64,000 nucleotides of DNA, from assembly GCA_002716355.1 (NCBI GenBank), contig PBAU01000005.1, positions 82,425-146,424 on the forward strand, in the 5' to 3' direction. A program made the position numbers and the translations under genes. Each line of letters begins with the position of its first letter. Within the stretch, counting starts at the first letter, position 1. The notes beneath the pieces are model-generated. The model did no database searches and had not been told where the DNA came from. It saw only the letters and a list, made by a program, of their open reading frames with translations. Shown here one piece after another: positions 56,047-64,000 of the stretch. This DNA is from a bacterium (lineage in GTDB: Bacteria > UBP7 > UBA6624).

Positions 56047-56682
56047 CTATTTTATTTCTTCACCATCACAAAATAACCTCAATGGTATCAGGTTGCCATC
56101 ATCCAAAACACTTAGCTCAACAGACATTGGCAATGGCTCTATCTCCCAGAAATAGGAACTTGTATCCATATCCCATGAACGCTCTCCGAGGCATTCCCTC
56201 AAACGTCCAACGCTTTCCTCGGAGAGGAAAATATTACCGAGTTCGTAACGGACATTAAAAAAATCTGAATTGTTTTCAAACTCCTCATAACTATACGGGT
56301 TCATATCCCATTCTGACCTCAAAAACAAACCCTCATCTGGCTTTGAAAAAGAAACTGAGGAGACACTCCAGGATGAACCGTCTTTTGTGATGGTTACAAA
56401 AATATTCTGCAAACCAGCCGCTGCAAGACCATCCTCCAAAGATTCAAATGGAACCAGATCCTCTTTGATCAAATCATTTGGTATCTTTGTCATGGCAGAA
56501 TCAAGAGAGGGCTCGAAAGTCCAACCTCGAAAAACAGTATTAAAAGGATAACCTGACTGCATGGGGTCAATGCTGAATACAACAACTGTCCCTGAGTTTG
56601 CTCGAATGCTGCTGAAAAATGCCAAGCCTGTTATTAGTAAGACTTGAACAAGGGATGCAATTAAAAAATTTCTCCTAATCAT
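56047..56682 (-). CDS. GDYXXLXY-like membrane-anchored protein
   Basis: About 211 residues with one N-terminal membrane segment (IRRNFLIASLVQVLLITGLAFF) and a periplasmic remainder. Families annotated as GDYXXLXY-domain usually follow a DUF2157 gene, and this protein has that position and topology; the defining motif is degenerate here (DPMQSGYPFNTVFRGWTF). Function unknown. ATG overlaps the DUF2157 stop by eight bases (ATGATTAG). Last gene of the cytochrome c maturation unit. Confidence 0.65.
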   Translation of the reverse strand: MIRRNFLIASLVQVLLITGLAFFSSIRANSGTVVVFSIDPMQSGYPFNTVFRGWTFEPSLDSAMTKIPNDLIKEDLVPFESLEDGLAAAGLQNIFVTITKDGSSWSVSSVSFSKPDEGLFLRSEWDMNPYSYEEFENNSDFFNVRYELGNIFLSEESVGRLRECLGERSWDMDTSSYFWEIEPLPMSVELSVLDDGNLIPLRLFCDGEEIK

Positions 56683-58024
56683 CTCTTGCCCCCGCATCAA
56701 ATATTTTTTTGCTTTGCTTTTCAATAAAGATACCGCCCCAAATTAACAAAACTCCGCCTAAGACAAACAGGAATGCTTGATTCAGGAGGGTTGAAAATAC
56801 ATCAAAGAAACGCAATAATATAAAGAATTTGAAAAACCATAAGGTCCATTTGAACAATCTCCAGTTTCTGGTAATGCTTGAAATGTAAAGAAAGGCAATA
56901 AGCTCAAAAAGAAGAATCAGGTTCATAAAAACTGAAATGACCATTGGATTGCCGTAAGAGAGGAATGGCAAGAGTATATTGATTAAAGAGATTGCAATAA
57001 AAAATTTCGAAACAAGCTTTCTTCTCTTGCTTGACGATCTTAAGCCATCCAGAGAAATCGTTATGACAAATGCTGAAATGGCGACAAAAGGCAATGCCTC
57101 AATTGGATACCCTGGAATCGGCATTTGGAAACCATCTTCATTTACGAAATTATGAAAAAAGGTGAATGGTATCTGAGTAAAGTAAAGAAAAATAACTCCT
57201 AATATACTGAAAGGGTAAGCTGCCCATTCTTTGACTCTCTTAATTGCAAGAACCGAAAGAAGAATTCCGAAAGAAACATAAAGGCTCACAAAACTCAATG
57301 CATCAGCTACACCGAAATCCAGTCTAGGAAGAATAAGAAAAAGATTAACATCTTTTTCCGAATGAGGGATAGCCAACATTCTTAGCTGCAAAAGGAAAAG
57401 CCAAAGAGAGGTTCCAAACAAAGAAAAAACTAAAGCAGGATTGTTTTGATCCCTAAATATCAGCTTCAGAAAAGAAAATGCTAACAACCCATAAATAACA
57501 ATATCAATCCAAGATATCGAAGTTTGAAATATCCATATTGTCAAGAGTATGCTTGCCAAAATAAGAACCCATAACAGCCTGAAAAACCTCATAAATAAAA
57601 AAAGCCCGGCAATCCAGATTAACAATTCCTGGCCATTATCAAATGAAATATTGAAAGTTTGAAGGATCAGGTTGACACCAGCTCCAAAAGAAAAAGCCCC
57701 CATTAGAAAGAAAGTTTGTGAAAGGTTTCTTCTGTTTGGTGCTTGGTAAAAATGATATCCAAGATAATTAAAACCAGATACAAAAATAAGGATTATTAAG
57801 GTTTTTATACCCGAAGAAAAACCCTGCCAGTTTGAAGCCATTGCCAAAATCAAACCCAAACCTACCAAAACTCCACCAAAAACCAATAATGCACTAATGA
57901 AACTAGTCATCTTCACATTTTCTTTTGAATACCTAGAACTTATTAGATCTGCTTGATCTTCTGAAATGATCCCTTCCTTGACCCAGGATTTCAATTGATC
58001 AAGCAACCATTTAATATTATTCAT
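56675..58024 (-). CDS. DUF2157 multi-spanning membrane protein
   Basis: 449 residues. A cytosolic N-terminal helix-rich segment (LKSWVKEGIISEDQADLISSRY) is the DUF2157 domain, followed by about twelve hydrophobic segments. Function unknown; these proteins occur with GDYXXLXY proteins. Here it is fused by overlap to the end of the ccm operon through a 30-residue membrane peptide (ATGAATAA junction), which suggests co-translation with the cytochrome c maturation genes. Confidence 0.82.
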   Translation of the reverse strand: MNNIKWLLDQLKSWVKEGIISEDQADLISSRYSKENVKMTSFISALLVFGGVLVGLGLILAMASNWQGFSSGIKTLIILIFVSGFNYLGYHFYQAPNRRNLSQTFFLMGAFSFGAGVNLILQTFNISFDNGQELLIWIAGLFLFMRFFRLLWVLILASILLTIWIFQTSISWIDIVIYGLLAFSFLKLIFRDQNNPALVFSLFGTSLWLFLLQLRMLAIPHSEKDVNLFLILPRLDFGVADALSFVSLYVSFGILLSVLAIKRVKEWAAYPFSILGVIFLYFTQIPFTFFHNFVNEDGFQMPIPGYPIEALPFVAISAFVITISLDGLRSSSKRRKLVSKFFIAISLINILLPFLSYGNPMVISVFMNLILLFELIAFLYISSITRNWRLFKWTLWFFKFFILLRFFDVFSTLLNQAFLFVLGGVLLIWGGIFIEKQSKKIFDAGARDD

Positions 58025-58109
58025 CGTCTTTTGCCCATAGGGGAGAAAATATCAAATAAACAAATCCTATAGTCAAAAGTCCGGCGATTAAAGGTTGGTA
58101 ATCAGTCAT
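58017..58109 (-). CDS. 30-residue single-span membrane microprotein
   Basis: A frame too short for normal ORF calling encodes 30 residues: a polar start (MTDYQP), one hydrophobic helix (about residues 7-25) and an acidic end (AKDDE). Its ATG overlaps the ccmH stop by one base (TAATG) and its TAA overlaps the DUF2157 ATG by eight bases, so both junctions have the form used by proven genes in this operon. Without it there would be an 84-base hole in an otherwise seamless operon. No homologue known to me; a small subunit of the Ccm or DUF2157 complex is an inference. Confidence 0.6.
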   Translation of the reverse strand: MTDYQPLIAGLLTIGFVYLIFSPLWAKDDE

Positions 58110-58462
58110 TATTTTGCCTTGTTTTTTGACAATTTTCGCAAAAAGAAAAAACCACCTACACAAAAGACAAAGGGCAAATACCAAACAATCTGGTGTATTC
58201 CTTTTTTAGGCGGCTCAAAAACAATCCAATCTCCATATCTTTCTATTAAATAATCTCTAATTTCAGAATCTGTCTTTCCCTCTAAGACCATATCAAGTAT
58301 CACTTCGTAGATCTCATTGCTGATTGGTGTATCAGAGTCAGCAATGCTGACAAATTTACAAGTTGGGCATCTGAAACTTTCAGCTATAGAAAGAGCCCTG
58401 TTCTCCTCCTCTTGTGTCGGATTCAAAATAAGAGCTAGACTAATAGCTAATAAAAATTTAAT
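58109..58462 (-). CDS. ccmH: Cytochrome c maturation protein CcmH (apparent ATT start)
   Basis: Thiol-reducing partner for apocytochrome c in system I. The catalytic Cys pair is FRCPTC, followed by the family signature VSIADSDTP, GKTDSEIRDYLIERYGDWIVFEPP and a C-terminal membrane helix. The first ordinary start is a TTG that leaves no signal peptide. Twelve codons further up, an ATT next to the ccmG stop opens a good signal sequence (KFLLAISLALIL) 7 bases after GGGAG; no ATG, GTG or TTG occurs between the upstream stop and that point. I therefore propose an ATT start. Confidence 0.82.
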   Translation of the reverse strand: MKFLLAISLALILNPTQEEENRALSIAESFRCPTCKFVSIADSDTPISNEIYEVILDMVLEGKTDSEIRDYLIERYGDWIVFEPPKKGIHQIVWYLPFVFCVGGFFFLRKLSKNKAK

Positions 58463-59048
58463 TTTCTTCTCCCATGATCAAATTAATATTTTCCAACAAG
58501 CTCTCCTCAGTTAATAGGCCGATAATTTTTGCTCTAACTATACCTTTTGAATCAATAAAGAAAGTCTCAGGAGCCCCGGTAACACCCCAATCAACCAATG
58601 ATTTTCCATTCATATCAATCCAATTTGGATACTTTAAACCAAAAACATCTATCATCTCTTGAGCATCTTCCACAGTGTCGTCAAAAGCAATCCCGATCAA
58701 AACAGGGCACTGGCCAGGAGATTGGCTTTCACACTGAGCCCACAAGGTGCTCCACTTCTTCAATAACGGGAATTCCTCCCTGCATGGAGGGCACCAACTA
58801 CCCCACCAATTAACTATAGTTACAGGTGGCCAATCTTCATCTTCATAATCTAAAAAATATTCATCATATACCTCTTCAAGATTGACTAAAGCTTGTTGGG
58901 TTGGGGCCTTTTTGCCCTGTAAAGAAAAATCTGAGACAACTTCATCTGAAGAATTTTGCTCAAGAATCGACAAACCTTTCGCCAACACAAAAACAAAACA
59001 GTAAATAAAAAAAAGGACCTTGATGAATCTTGAATACTGAACCTTCAT
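58458..59048 (-). CDS. ccmG: Thiol:disulfide interchange protein CcmG/DsbE
   Basis: Membrane-anchored thioredoxin-like protein that keeps the apocytochrome haem-binding Cys reduced. One N-terminal membrane segment (VLFFIYCFVFVLAKG), then a thioredoxin fold with WWGSWCPPCREEFP (Cys-Pro-Pro-Cys) and the cis-Pro region GVTGAPETFFIDSKG. 196 residues. The central part has an insert of about ten residues (CESQSPGQC) with a second Cys pair. ATGA overlap with ccmF. Confidence 0.92.
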   Translation of the reverse strand: MKVQYSRFIKVLFFIYCFVFVLAKGLSILEQNSSDEVVSDFSLQGKKAPTQQALVNLEEVYDEYFLDYEDEDWPPVTIVNWWGSWCPPCREEFPLLKKWSTLWAQCESQSPGQCPVLIGIAFDDTVEDAQEMIDVFGLKYPNWIDMNGKSLVDWGVTGAPETFFIDSKGIVRAKIIGLLTEESLLENINLIMGEEN

Positions 59049-60973
59049 CGTCTCTCACTTCCAATAATAACTAAAAAACCCAAAATAGAAATAATTCCAC
59101 CAATCCAAATAAATTTTAAAAATGGCTGAATCGTTACTCTGTATCTAACTTTGGAATCATTGATAATTTCAGACATAGATAAAGTAATGTCTCTCTTCCA
59201 GTTTGATTTAAGGCCCATCTCAGTGGTTGGTGACCAATTGGGACCATAATCTCTTTTCTCCGGATAGAGGATCTTTGTACCACCATCTGAAGAAACATGG
59301 ACCGATGCACCAAAAGAAGAATAATTTTCACTATTGGTGATTTGTAAACCATTTGCATCCTGAGTCAATTCAACATCGTAATCATCTAAAACAAATGATT
59401 TTTCATTTTCTAGAATTGCATCAGTTTGAAATTTGTGCTCGACACTTGCAGTAGCCCCTATAGCCAAAAATAAAACTCCAAGATGGACAATCAGTCCTCC
59501 ATGATAACTACTCATAAAACGACCTTTTTTGGAGTCTAAAAATTCTTTACAGGTTGGCAAAAGAGTGAACCCAAGCAAAAAAGTAGTTAAAAAATGTTCC
59601 CACGAACTGTCAAGCCAAGGCAAGCCTATGGAGGATCTAATGTAGCTGAAAAACAAGAAAGACAGCAACCCTCCTATAGTTCCTATTTTTAAATAATTTT
59701 TAAATTTCTTGCCTGTTTTTCTTTTCCATGAAAGCCATGGGGCGATTGAAAGCAAGATTAAGGCTGGCATTGATATCGGTGGTATTGTTTTTTCAAAATA
59801 TGGAGCTCCAACACTAACCTTTTCACCTGTTGATATTTCTGAAAATATTGGCCATGTGGTTCCAAAAAAAACAGCAACAAACATCCCTAGAAACAATAAA
59901 TTATTGAAAAGTATGGCATTTTCCTTTGAAGCAGATTCTTTTAAATCACTATTGTCTTTGAGTGAATCCCAATTAAAACCCAAAAAACCAAAAGCAAAAA
60001 GTAAATAAACTGTTATGTACCCTAAAAACCAATAACCAAGATCGCTTTCTGAAAAAGCATGGACACTTGTAATGATTCCGCTTCGCGTAATAAATGTCCC
60101 GACAAGCGTCATTCCGTAAGCAGCAAGAACAAGAAATAAATTCCATCTATTGAATAATTTTCTTGCCTTGAAGGCTAAAGCACTGTGAGCAAAAGCCGTT
60201 AAAAGCAGCCATGGCATAAGGCTAGCATTTTCCACAGGATCCCAAAACCACCAACCACCCCAGCCCAATTCATGATAAGCCCACCATGATCCAACCAAAA
60301 TTCCTGTTGTTAAAAAAAACCACGCATAGTTTGTCCAATAACGAGACAGCTGGATCCATTCCTCATTTTTATTTAACAAATGTGTAATTGCATGAGAAGC
60401 TGGTATTGTTATGCCAGTGAAACCAAGATAAAGCAAAGGGGGGTGGATCGCCATCCCTGGATCTTGTAACAATGGATTCATTCCAATGCCATCTAAAGGA
60501 ATGGTGAAGCGATCATCAAAAGAAGCCAAAGGATTGGCAAACTTTAACATCAGGCCAGAAAAAAAGCAAAGTGTTGCTGAGGGTAGCAGTAAAAATGATG
60601 TCAAAATTGAACCGCGAAGCTTGTCTTTATATATTGCCAAAAAAGTAAACAAGCAAATTAAAAATGCCCACAACAATAAACCTCCCTCAAGGCTCCCCCA
60701 CCATGCTGAAAAAAGATACATGGTTGGTTGTGATTTTGATGACACGGTAGCTACATAACGAATAGAAAAATCATGTGAAAAAAGAGCATATTGCAACCCA
60801 AAAACAGTCAACAATGAACCTATACATGATGTCAAAAACGATCTTTTTGCCACAAGGGACCATTGAGATTTTGACTTAAGATCGAGAACTGAAAACACTA
60901 AAGCAAATAATGCCCCTGCACAAAGAGCCCATAGACCAAATCTTCCTAAAAAAACTGGCCAACTAGCAATCAT
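59045..60973 (-). CDS. ccmF: Haem lyase CcmF
   Basis: Large membrane protein joining haem from CcmE to apocytochrome c. 642 residues, about fourteen membrane segments. The WWD haem-handling motif is GWGGWWFWDPVENASLMPW; conserved His-bearing loops HPPLLYLGF and ITSVHAF are present, and a periplasmic C-terminal domain precedes the last helix. ATGA overlaps on both sides (ccmE, ccmG). Confidence 0.96.
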   Translation of the reverse strand: MIASWPVFLGRFGLWALCAGALFALVFSVLDLKSKSQWSLVAKRSFLTSCIGSLLTVFGLQYALFSHDFSIRYVATVSSKSQPTMYLFSAWWGSLEGGLLLWAFLICLFTFLAIYKDKLRGSILTSFLLLPSATLCFFSGLMLKFANPLASFDDRFTIPLDGIGMNPLLQDPGMAIHPPLLYLGFTGITIPASHAITHLLNKNEEWIQLSRYWTNYAWFFLTTGILVGSWWAYHELGWGGWWFWDPVENASLMPWLLLTAFAHSALAFKARKLFNRWNLFLVLAAYGMTLVGTFITRSGIITSVHAFSESDLGYWFLGYITVYLLFAFGFLGFNWDSLKDNSDLKESASKENAILFNNLLFLGMFVAVFFGTTWPIFSEISTGEKVSVGAPYFEKTIPPISMPALILLSIAPWLSWKRKTGKKFKNYLKIGTIGGLLSFLFFSYIRSSIGLPWLDSSWEHFLTTFLLGFTLLPTCKEFLDSKKGRFMSSYHGGLIVHLGVLFLAIGATASVEHKFQTDAILENEKSFVLDDYDVELTQDANGLQITNSENYSSFGASVHVSSDGGTKILYPEKRDYGPNWSPTTEMGLKSNWKRDITLSMSEIINDSKVRYRVTIQPFLKFIWIGGIISILGFLVIIGSERR

Positions 60974-61446
60974 TCAAGTGTCCCGGAAGGTATGCCTGAG
61001 CCAAACCTTTTCTTCATTTCCGTTTTATCAAGATGCTCTTTGGAGTATTCTTCTCCGTGTTTAACAAAAATATCATCAGCATAAAAAATCCACTCATCAG
61101 CAGAAAAATATCCGTTATCAACCTCGCTTGGGAATATTCCTTCAGCAACTGCTCCTTGGCCTTCAGCAAACATGTCAGGCAGAATTCCCTCATACCGAAC
61201 CCTAACAACACCTCTCTCATCATCAGTTAAAACAAAAAAAACAACTTCATCTTCAATAGATATAGAGTCTGGCTGAACAAAACCTCCAATCCTGATTCTT
61301 GCATCCTGTTCCATTTCATCACTGGTGATAGATTGCTCCACCTCTGTAGGAAAATAAAAAAACAAAGATGCATCTTGGATTCCAGAAAAAACTAACCATA
61401 AAACAGCCAAAAAAGCCATTATTAACGAAATCATCGTTCTGTTCAT
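60970..61446 (-). CDS. ccmE: Haem chaperone CcmE
   Basis: Periplasmic OB-fold protein that binds haem covalently through a His and carries it to CcmF. One N-terminal membrane anchor, IRIGGFVQPDSI, FVLTDDERGVVRVRYEGILPDMF and the haem-binding FVKHGEEY (His-x3-Tyr, the common His type). About 158 residues. The frame continues 14 codons upstream, but the ATG used overlaps the ccmD stop as ATGA and starts right at the membrane anchor. Confidence 0.94.
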   Translation of the reverse strand: MNRTMISLIMAFLAVLWLVFSGIQDASLFFYFPTEVEQSITSDEMEQDARIRIGGFVQPDSISIEDEVVFFVLTDDERGVVRVRYEGILPDMFAEGQGAVAEGIFPSEVDNGYFSADEWIFYADDIFVKHGEEYSKEHLDKTEMKKRFGSGIPSGTLE

Positions 61447-61541
61447 GGTAGCGGGTTTTTCCCTTGCCTTTTCCAGAAAAGATAACATATCACAACAACA
61501 ATTGCGTAACTGAAATAAATAGTTGGCAAGTAGTTATTCAT
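61443..61541 (-). CDS. ccmD: Haem exporter accessory peptide CcmD
   Basis: A 32-residue frame with one membrane helix (about residues 8-23), a Tyr/Ser-rich N-terminus (NNYLPTIYFSYA) and a basic tail (WKRQGKN), the usual form of CcmD, which holds CcmE to CcmC in the CcmABCD complex. It lies exactly where ccmD is expected, between ccmC and ccmE. Its ATG overlaps the ccmC stop by eight bases (ATGAATAA) and its TGA overlaps the ccmE ATG. Too short for routine detection; sequence conservation in CcmD is always low. Confidence 0.85.
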   Translation of the reverse strand: MNNYLPTIYFSYAIVVVICYLFWKRQGKNPLP

Positions 61542-62172
61542 TTTCAACCTTCAATAATCTACTTTTAATGCAGCAAAAAGACCAGTAAATTACAATCCCA
61601 AAGCAAGCAAGCAATATCATAAACATGTCACCATCAATTTTTGGAGGGCCCTCCTGTCTAAATATTGTAGAACCCTGATGTAATGTTCTCCAATAATTAA
61701 CCGAGAGATGCACTAAAGGAACGTTTAACGCAGCAATGATGGAGATGATACTTCCTACCCTTTGGCCTTCAGGATTGTCTCCATAAACATCCCTAACAAT
61801 TAAATATGCACAAAGTATTAAAAACAATATCAACATAGTGGTTAACCTAGCATCCCAAACCCACCATGTTCCCCAAGTCATTTTCCCCCATATGCTTCCT
61901 GTCATTAATGTCAAAAAGGCTGAAATGGTCCCGACCTCAATTAATGATCTGGAAATCCTTTCCCATTCTGATTCCCTTTTCCACAAATAAAGACAAGAGG
62001 TTAAAGCTGCAAAAACAGTAGTTAAAAACGAATTCCATGCGAAGGGAACGTGTAGATAAAGCATAAAAACCCTTTTCCCCATCCCTTGGGCTAAGTCGGG
62101 CGGAGACCAATAAAAAATGGCAAGGTTGACAACAATCATCAAAATCAACCATAAAGGGAAATTTTTTCTCAT
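61534..62172 (-). CDS. ccmC: Haem transporter subunit CcmC
   Basis: Membrane protein that loads haem onto CcmE. 212 residues, six membrane segments. The WWD motif is WGKMTWGTWWVWDARLT, flanked by conserved His in LHVPFAW and VPLVHLSVNYWRTLHQG. The frame is open 26 codons further up, within ccmB; the ATG chosen overlaps the ccmB stop as ATGA. Confidence 0.95.
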   Translation of the reverse strand: MRKNFPLWLILMIVVNLAIFYWSPPDLAQGMGKRVFMLYLHVPFAWNSFLTTVFAALTSCLYLWKRESEWERISRSLIEVGTISAFLTLMTGSIWGKMTWGTWWVWDARLTTMLILFLILCAYLIVRDVYGDNPEGQRVGSIISIIAALNVPLVHLSVNYWRTLHQGSTIFRQEGPPKIDGDMFMILLACFGIVIYWSFCCIKSRLLKVENE

Positions 62173-62843
62173 GAATCTAAAGCTTTCTCTCCTAAGCCAA
62201 ACACAAGCAAAAATTGTACAAAAGAATAAACAAATAATATGTAAAACCAATTACCAACAAGCAACCCATCTGCAATTATGTCTTTTGTAATATTTATAGA
62301 TGACATAAGTATTGGAACAGCTAATGGGTATAAAAATAAGGGAAGCAGTATGTTTCTAAAATTCAAACCTAAAGATAAAGCTCCAAAAATACCACCTAAA
62401 AAACCAAAAGCAATTGAACTAAAGATAATCACAATTAACAAAAAAACAACCTGCTCTATGGTCAAGCTGTAATCAAAAAAGAAAAAAGTCATTAAAAGAG
62501 TTGCAATCGTGATAAAGAAGCATAAAAAAGCCCCCCATAAACTTTTACCTAAAACTATTCCCCCGCGATCCAATGATGATGATTTTAAAAAATCAAGCAA
62601 TGATTCATTCTCTTCATCATCCCAGATTTTTAAAATTCCAATACTGCTTGAAAGTATAGAGGTAACCCAAATTAATCCTGGTAAAAAATTCACTAAATCT
62701 TTTGGGGATGGCTCGTAGGCAACCTCAAAAACAACAATAAACATTATGGAAAGCAAAAAAAGACCCAAAAATCTACCAAATTTCTTACGTAAAGAAAATA
62801 AACTTTCAGAAAAAATGATCAAGGTTGTTTTCAGGAGGTTCAT
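62169..62843 (-). CDS. ccmB: Haem exporter membrane subunit CcmB
   Basis: 224 residues with about six membrane segments, partner of the CcmA ATPase. DFLKSSSLDRGGIVLGKSLWG matches the conserved cytosolic loop (coupling to CcmA), and FGALSLGLNFRNILLPLFLYPLAVPILM is the most conserved CcmB stretch. ATGA overlap with ccmA and ccmC. Confidence 0.93.
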   Translation of the reverse strand: MNLLKTTLIIFSESLFSLRKKFGRFLGLFLLSIMFIVVFEVAYEPSPKDLVNFLPGLIWVTSILSSSIGILKIWDDEENESLLDFLKSSSLDRGGIVLGKSLWGAFLCFFITIATLLMTFFFFDYSLTIEQVVFLLIVIIFSSIAFGFLGGIFGALSLGLNFRNILLPLFLYPLAVPILMSSINITKDIIADGLLVGNWFYILFVYSFVQFLLVFGLGEKALDS

Positions 62844-63481
62844 TTTTTTCTCTCCAATTTAGATGCTGAAACAAATTCGTATATGGATTCAAAATAATCT
62901 ATCTCTTCAAAGAGATTTGAAACCAACAAAATCGTTTTGTTACCTTCTTTCAATTCTTTCAAATACTTATTTAAGATTTTTTTTCCGTAATCATCCAAAC
63001 CCTTAAAAGGCTCGTCAAGAAGATAGATTTGAGCTTCTTGAAGCATTGAGATACTGATAGAGAGACGTTTTTTCATACCTGTAGAATAATTTTTTACAGC
63101 TACATTTCTAGCCTCCCAGAGATCAACTTTTTTTAAAGAATCATCTAAATCATTCTTAGTGCCAAAATTTAAAAACTTATTAAAAAAAGTCAGATTTTCG
63201 TATGCTGATAAATGCTTGTAAAAAGCATCCCCAGGACTCATATATGCTATTGAAGATCTGGTTTTATTATCATGGACAGAATTGCCCAATATTTCAATAC
63301 TGCCATCATTTGGCCTCAAGACACCAGCAAACAACCTTAAAAGAGTTGTTTTTCCTATCCCATTTCTTCCTGTTAATAATGCGTTTTCTGATTTTTTTAA
63401 AGAAAAATTTAAATTCTTAATAATGTATTGATTGTCAAATTTTTTAGAAATTAAATCAGCGTAAATTGCACAATTATTCAT
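62840..63481 (-). CDS. ccmA: Haem exporter ATP-binding protein CcmA
   Basis: ABC ATPase of 213 residues that releases haem-loaded CcmE from CcmC/D. Walker A LTGRNGIGKTTLLR, ABC signature YSTGMKKRLSIS, Walker B IYLLDEPFKGLDD. First recognisable ccm gene of the operon; its ATG overlaps the upstream TPR gene by eight bases (ATGAATAA). Confidence 0.94.
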   Translation of the reverse strand: MNNCAIYADLISKKFDNQYIIKNLNFSLKKSENALLTGRNGIGKTTLLRLFAGVLRPNDGSIEILGNSVHDNKTRSSIAYMSPGDAFYKHLSAYENLTFFNKFLNFGTKNDLDDSLKKVDLWEARNVAVKNYSTGMKKRLSISISMLQEAQIYLLDEPFKGLDDYGKKILNKYLKELKEGNKTILLVSNLFEEIDYFESIYEFVSASKLERKK

Positions 63482-64000
63482 CTTTAAAATACTGCCTTAA
63501 AAAACTTCTGGCTTCATCTCCTACAGCACCATCAGGATCTAGTTCAGAGCATTTTGAAAATGCATCAAATGCTATATCTTTTTCACCGGTATTAGTCATA
63601 ACAAAACCATAAGTTAACCAACCATTCGGATAATTCGGATGATCAGCTATAAGCTTTTCTAAAGTATTAATTGAAGCAAGTATAAAGCTTTCTGAATCAG
63701 CGGTTGCCCCAATTGGGGTGGAAACACCTGCCATAAATTGAGCAAAAGCCATATCATTTCTTGTATTTGGTACATCGTTAACATTTAATGCTTTCTGATA
63801 CCAGGGAATTGAACGATCATAAAACTGAACTTCATAATACATATCAGCAACCTTTAAAGCCGCCATCCAATTAGTGTTATCCTTCTCCCAGATTGACTTC
63901 CATGAATCTAGCTCTTCCCTGTATGCATTCATCTGCTGAGCGGTTTGCTCATCCATAACTGGCATATCTGTACTATTGTTTTCATTAACTGGAGGATGCC
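63474..64000 (-). CDS. TPR-containing protein, 5' end outside the window (CcmI/NrfG-like?)
   Basis: C-terminal part, at least 174 residues, of a protein whose frame is open to the window edge; the first ATG inside (63965) is probably internal because open sequence continues before it. It contains two or three TPR-like helical repeats (WMAALKVADMYYEVQFYDRSIPWYQKAL, later GWLTYGFVMTNTGEKDIAFDAFSKCSELDP). Next to ccmA, a CcmI/NrfG-type apocytochrome chaperone role is plausible but unproven, since CcmI normally lies at the other end of ccm operons. Confidence 0.72.
   Translation of the reverse strand, partial: HPPVNENNSTDMPVMDEQTAQQMNAYREELDSWKSIWEKDNTNWMAALKVADMYYEVQFYDRSIPWYQKALNVNDVPNTRNDMAFAQFMAGVSTPIGATADSESFILASINTLEKLIADHPNYPNGWLTYGFVMTNTGEKDIAFDAFSKCSELDPDGAVGDEARSFLRQYFKDE

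Follow-up and report, generated by a model that had tools for sequence, protein, structure and literature searches.

A 30-residue single-helix protein encoded after ccmH in UBP7 bacteria is likely derived from the N-terminal helix of CcmI

The cytochrome c assembly (ccm) operon of a bacterium from the little-known phylum UBP7 carries, between ccmH and a gene for a DUF2157 membrane protein, a 93-nt open reading frame that family searches leave unnamed. We asked whether this frame is a gene and, if so, whether it is a new component of the Ccm system, a partner of DUF2157, or a form of a known Ccm protein. The window, that is, the whole 64,000-nucleotide stretch of DNA that was analyzed, contains the following features around the frame, all on the minus strand:

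56675-58024 (-), DUF2157 membrane protein (PF09925, E = 6e-31); downstream neighbor in the window's genus only, outside the conserved unit
58017-58109 (-), 30-aa single-helix microprotein, likely a CcmI-derived stub; kept in two further UBP7 genomes (G002 and G001) directly 3' of ccmH, matches the CcmI N-terminus, helical in AlphaFold2
58109-58462 (-), ccmH (PF03918, E = 1.1e-25); start uncertain, very short C-terminal tail
58458-59048 (-), ccmG, a DsbE-type thioredoxin (Pfam AhpC-TSA/Redoxin; TIGR00385 dsbE, E = 2.2e-22)
59045-60973 (-), ccmF (PF16327 and PF01578)
60970-61488 (-), ccmE (PF03100, E = 2e-20)
61443-61547 (-), likely ccmD, 34 aa, in its usual place between ccmC and ccmE, with one hydrophobic segment
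61534-62250 (-), ccmC (PF01578; TIGR01191, E = 1.9e-44); start uncertain
62169-62843 (-), ccmB (PF03379, E = 3.5e-16)
62840-63481 (-), ccmA, ABC ATPase, read as a frame; its same-place counterpart in G001 matches at 3.3e-28
63474-64000 (-), TM-TPR protein heading the operon and truncated by the window end; complete at L107:1399-2058 (219 aa); best Pfam match PF23914

The frame after ccmH and its conservation in UBP7

The microprotein (58109-58017, minus strand; 30 codons) has the sequence MTDYQPLIAGLLTIGFVYLIFSPLWAKDDE. Its ATG overlaps the ccmH stop as TAATG, and AAGG lies 7 nt upstream of it in the window and is likewise present in G002. At its other end, the stop shares 8 nt, ATGAATAA, with the DUF2157 start; the upstream TPR gene and ccmA overlap by the same 8 nt (63474-63481). 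The first-pass annotation had described a 30-codon frame with start and stop overlaps typical of its neighbors and a single membrane helix, and both descriptions hold: AlphaFold2 models the protein as one helix spanning residues 5-29. The chain ends 5-6 residues past a PLW motif.

The UBP7 sample comprises three genomes, 62-87% complete: the window's own (G000), one from the same genus (G002), and one from a sister genus (G001, 78% complete). Genome searches at the family, order, class, and phylum levels each gave these same three. The frame is present in all of them, and thus in two genera; looking for it in relatives, as had been suggested, found it intact directly 3' of ccmH in both G002 and G001. 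The G002 copy, MTDYQPLIAGLLTIGFVYWIFSPLWGKDDE, has 28 of 30 residues as in G000, and the codons of the two differ by four synonymous and two nonsynonymous changes (pS 0.20, pN 0.03), in line with the values for neighbor genes. The G001 copy, MAEYANLWSGIGAVLIAYWVFTPLWKPRHRG, is 31 aa long with ~30% identity to the window copy, and its start falls within the last ccmH codons, 8 nt before the ccmH stop. A Y..F.PLW end is common to the window and G001 copies, and nine columns (M1, Y4, L7, G10, Y18, F21, P23, L24, and W25) are invariant across all three. The acidic tail that had also been pointed out is not conserved, as it reads KDDE in the window's genus and a basic KPRHRG in G001.

The surroundings of the frame differ between the genera. 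No gene overlaps the end of the microprotein in G001, where the next frame opens downstream and may encode a deoxyribose-phosphate aldolase. A whole-genome search of this 78%-complete genome did not find DUF2157, and none adjoins ccmH there. The microprotein frame therefore travels with ccmH rather than with DUF2157, and the conserved unit is ccmH plus the microprotein. In the window, DUF2157 is followed by a gene for a 225-aa membrane-anchored protein (56047-56724, minus strand) that matches no Pfam or NCBIfam family; it has an FRG stretch reminiscent of the GDYXXLXY proteins, frequent companions of DUF2157.

Two further observations concern the operon itself. The first in-frame ATG, GTG, or TTG of ccmH is a TTG at 58426, and a start there would cut the signal peptide. 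An ATT at 58462, seen in G000 and G002, overlaps the ccmG stop and gives MKFLLAIS...; for this reason, a rare noncanonical ATT start is possible for ccmH. The G001 operon also has a second ccmG-like thioredoxin gene between ccmG and ccmH (L035:15497-16180), which the window lacks.

Relation to CcmI

CcmI, CcmF, and CcmH are members of a heme-ligation complex, and CcmI chaperones apocytochrome (PMC3884852, PMC3601427). In 94 loci, we examined the gene that follows ccmH and found that this slot is often occupied by ccmI in other phyla. The next gene is CcmI-like in 32 non-UBP7 loci (85-469 aa), where its start most commonly overlaps the stop of ccmH or lies no more than 25 nt away, and 10 of 14 sampled CcmI-like proteins match the NCBIfam model TIGR03142. 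Typically, one helix ending in a proline and hydrophobic residues leads into a cytoplasmic ELExDxxxGKLS region; only M1 and the helix-ending proline are invariant in the alignment. One CcmI-like copy, in G133 (locus L051; MTIEIIAIMIIFGAGLWFLFSPLAKNDTDE...), strikingly resembles the window peptide and, like the G001 microprotein, starts 8 nt ahead of the ccmH stop. Apparent in-frame TGA codons had raised the idea of recoding in CcmH of the G133 phylum; the TGAs read follow the last helix, right where the CcmH match ends, and are thus ordinary stops, so this idea was dropped.

Single 30-aa UBP7 sequences have no family match in Pfam or NCBIfam, and TIGR03142 gives none even at E 10. As a profile, the three sequences align to the CcmI profile in hhalign with P = 2.6e-5 (2.8e-4 under other settings, the value being setting-dependent), placing residues 6-30 on CcmI residues 4-28 and proline on proline. 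As a null, we took 491 windows, each hydrophobic and 30 columns wide, from alignments of further proteins of the same three genomes; the best window reached P = 0.0065 against CcmI. Scored with a position matrix, the microproteins resemble left-out CcmI N-termini and exceed ~99.5% of membrane windows, a null set that still includes CcmI. We also scanned blindly every frame of at least 22 aa near the ccmH stop in the 94 loci with a CcmI model. The three UBP7 frames matched (E = 0.0066, 0.037, and 0.047), and all other matches were at least 85 aa long. The frame is thus coding, conserved in two genera, and linked to ccmH, and its sequence is CcmI-like above a matched null.

Set against the TIGR03142 family, the microprotein lies directly after ccmH in 3 of 3 UBP7 genomes and has an N-terminal helix ending in the invariant proline, as seen in the alignment and in the comparison of profile with null. 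The cytoplasmic domain with the ELExDxxxGKLS region is absent after the first helix, and none of the three members matches the family model at its cut-off. Nor does the protein, at only 30 aa, hold the periplasmic TPR domain of the long form of CcmI. Searches with TIGR03142 and an in-house CcmI profile did not find CcmI, including its cytoplasmic domain, elsewhere in the three UBP7 genomes, whose completeness of 62-87% makes its absence likely rather than proven. As a positive control, the in-house profile was run on the phylum of G352, where 48 of 52 genomes yielded CcmI, including copies off the ccmH contig. In one family of that phylum (f262, loci L058-L072), ccmH is long-tailed with no adjoining ccmI, and a ccmI of ~90 aa lies on contigs other than that of ccmH, indicating that ccmI can leave the operon.

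CcmH is also shortened in UBP7, ending 7-9 residues after its last helix without the usual cytoplasmic tail, which measures 20-53 residues in the 19 loci with CcmI after ccmH. Across all loci, the association of a short CcmH tail with the lack of a neighboring ccmI is marginal (P = 0.047), because some genomes carry ccmI elsewhere. The lack of cytoplasmic parts in both proteins in UBP7 suggests that those parts of CcmI and CcmH work together.

Competing explanations and a proposed role

From these sequence comparisons, we consider it likely that the microprotein is a CcmI-derived stub: what remains of UBP7 CcmI, its first transmembrane helix, encoded as a free-standing peptide. The homology rests on about 25 columns because the protein is short. 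The earlier proposal of a new small Ccm component stands insofar as this is a real, conserved small membrane protein of the Ccm operon; "new" is too strong, since position, overlapping start, topology, and the null-controlled comparison of profiles converge on a known protein, CcmI, and specifically on its N-terminal helix. Nor should it be classed as a complete CcmI, because the cytoplasmic domain, the TPR domain, and a family-model match are missing.

The main competitor is an unrelated small subunit, similar in kind to CcmD, with an independent origin after ccmH and a convergent resemblance to the CcmI helix; it would still stabilize CcmF-CcmH. Single helices carry little information, and the failure of individual UBP7 sequences to match any family fits this explanation. 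Yet the gene lies where ccmI would be expected and its start is coupled to ccmH, the profile beats 491 of 491 null windows against CcmI, and no other short frame after ccmH in the 94 loci matches the CcmI model; we therefore regard convergence as unlikely. CcmD itself was considered and rejected, given the location after ccmH and the separate 34-aa frame in the ccmD place, which does not score as CcmI. That frame has 30 of 31 compared residues kept in G002 and no family-model match in Pfam or NCBIfam.

With most of CcmI missing and an 8-nt overlap with DUF2157 in the window, the frame could alternatively be a decaying, functionless ccmI remnant kept only to couple translation of ccmH to that of the next gene. 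This is improbable: G001 retains the length (31 aa) and the motif though nothing overlaps downstream, and the four synonymous against two nonsynonymous changes between G000 and G002 (~20 and 70 sites, respectively) suggest constraint, although six changes are few. A role as a small partner subunit of the DUF2157 protein, which the first-pass annotation had raised and which the overlap in the window's genus would favor, was dropped and has very little probability, as the 78%-complete G001 genome keeps the microprotein directly after ccmH with no DUF2157 detected. A chance open frame is hardly credible despite the short length of 93 nt, for slot, length, and motif are alike in two genera.

If the microprotein is indeed the CcmI helix, it probably contributes one helix to the heme-ligation complex of CcmF and CcmH. 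The helix, ending in P-L-W, would be encoded where ccmI normally lies, its translation coupled to that of ccmH, and would insert as a single helix beside CcmF and CcmH, as is thought for the CcmI helix in the CcmFHI complex. As a structural subunit, it may help to hold the complex together. CcmI and CcmH would have lost their cytoplasmic parts jointly, and apocytochrome binding by TPR repeats, if it persists, would fall to the separate TM-TPR protein upstream of ccmA.

That protein, of 211-219 aa with an N-terminal helix and TPR repeats, is encoded immediately ahead of ccmA in each of the three UBP7 genomes. The best Pfam match of the G000 copy is PF23914 (TPR_CcmH_CycH, E = 1.3e-5, below the curated cut-off), and generic TPR models outscore PF23914 for the G001 copy. 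We propose that it may supply the apocytochrome-binding role of CcmI. More tentatively, and with less than even confidence, UBP7 could have a split, minimal CcmI in which the 30-aa helix at the operon tail and the TM-TPR chaperone at its head jointly replace CcmI. The CcmI cytoplasmic domain and the CcmH cytoplasmic tail would then be one module that can disappear as a whole, and the heme-ligation complex could be built with just a single helix.

Comparison with known Ccm proteins

The microprotein shares with the N-terminus of CcmI/CycH (TIGR03142) the slot after ccmH, the coupled start, and an N-terminal helix of ~20 residues followed by a proline and hydrophobic residues. In Rhodobacter CcmI, a cytoplasmic segment links two helices, and a TPR domain lies in the periplasm (PMC3884852, PMC3601427); the UBP7 peptide, in contrast, stops after the helix and has no cytoplasmic GKLS region, second helix, or TPR domain. 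Short CcmI proteins of 85-138 aa, found in several phyla, come closer, with the same slot and helix and without the TPR part, but they keep the cytoplasmic domain, and the UBP7 form is about one-third their length. The literature searched, with partial coverage, contained no description of such a helix-only form. CcmD is likewise a small single-helix Ccm subunit, but its place is between ccmC and ccmE, filled in the window by the separate 34-aa frame.

The CcmH and CcmI parts may be fused or encoded by separate genes, as in E. coli CcmH (a fused CcmH-CcmI) and NrfFG (PMC3601427). CcmI is not equally important everywhere: Rhodobacter capsulatus requires it, while E. coli can do without the CcmI part of its CcmH (PMC3601427). 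E. coli CcmH and NrfFG keep the TPR part, whereas UBP7 keeps only the first helix next to ccmH. A lineage that apparently retains the first CcmI helix by itself offers a natural minimal construct, and it suggests that what CcmI must place next to CcmH is this helix and not its cytoplasmic or TPR portions.
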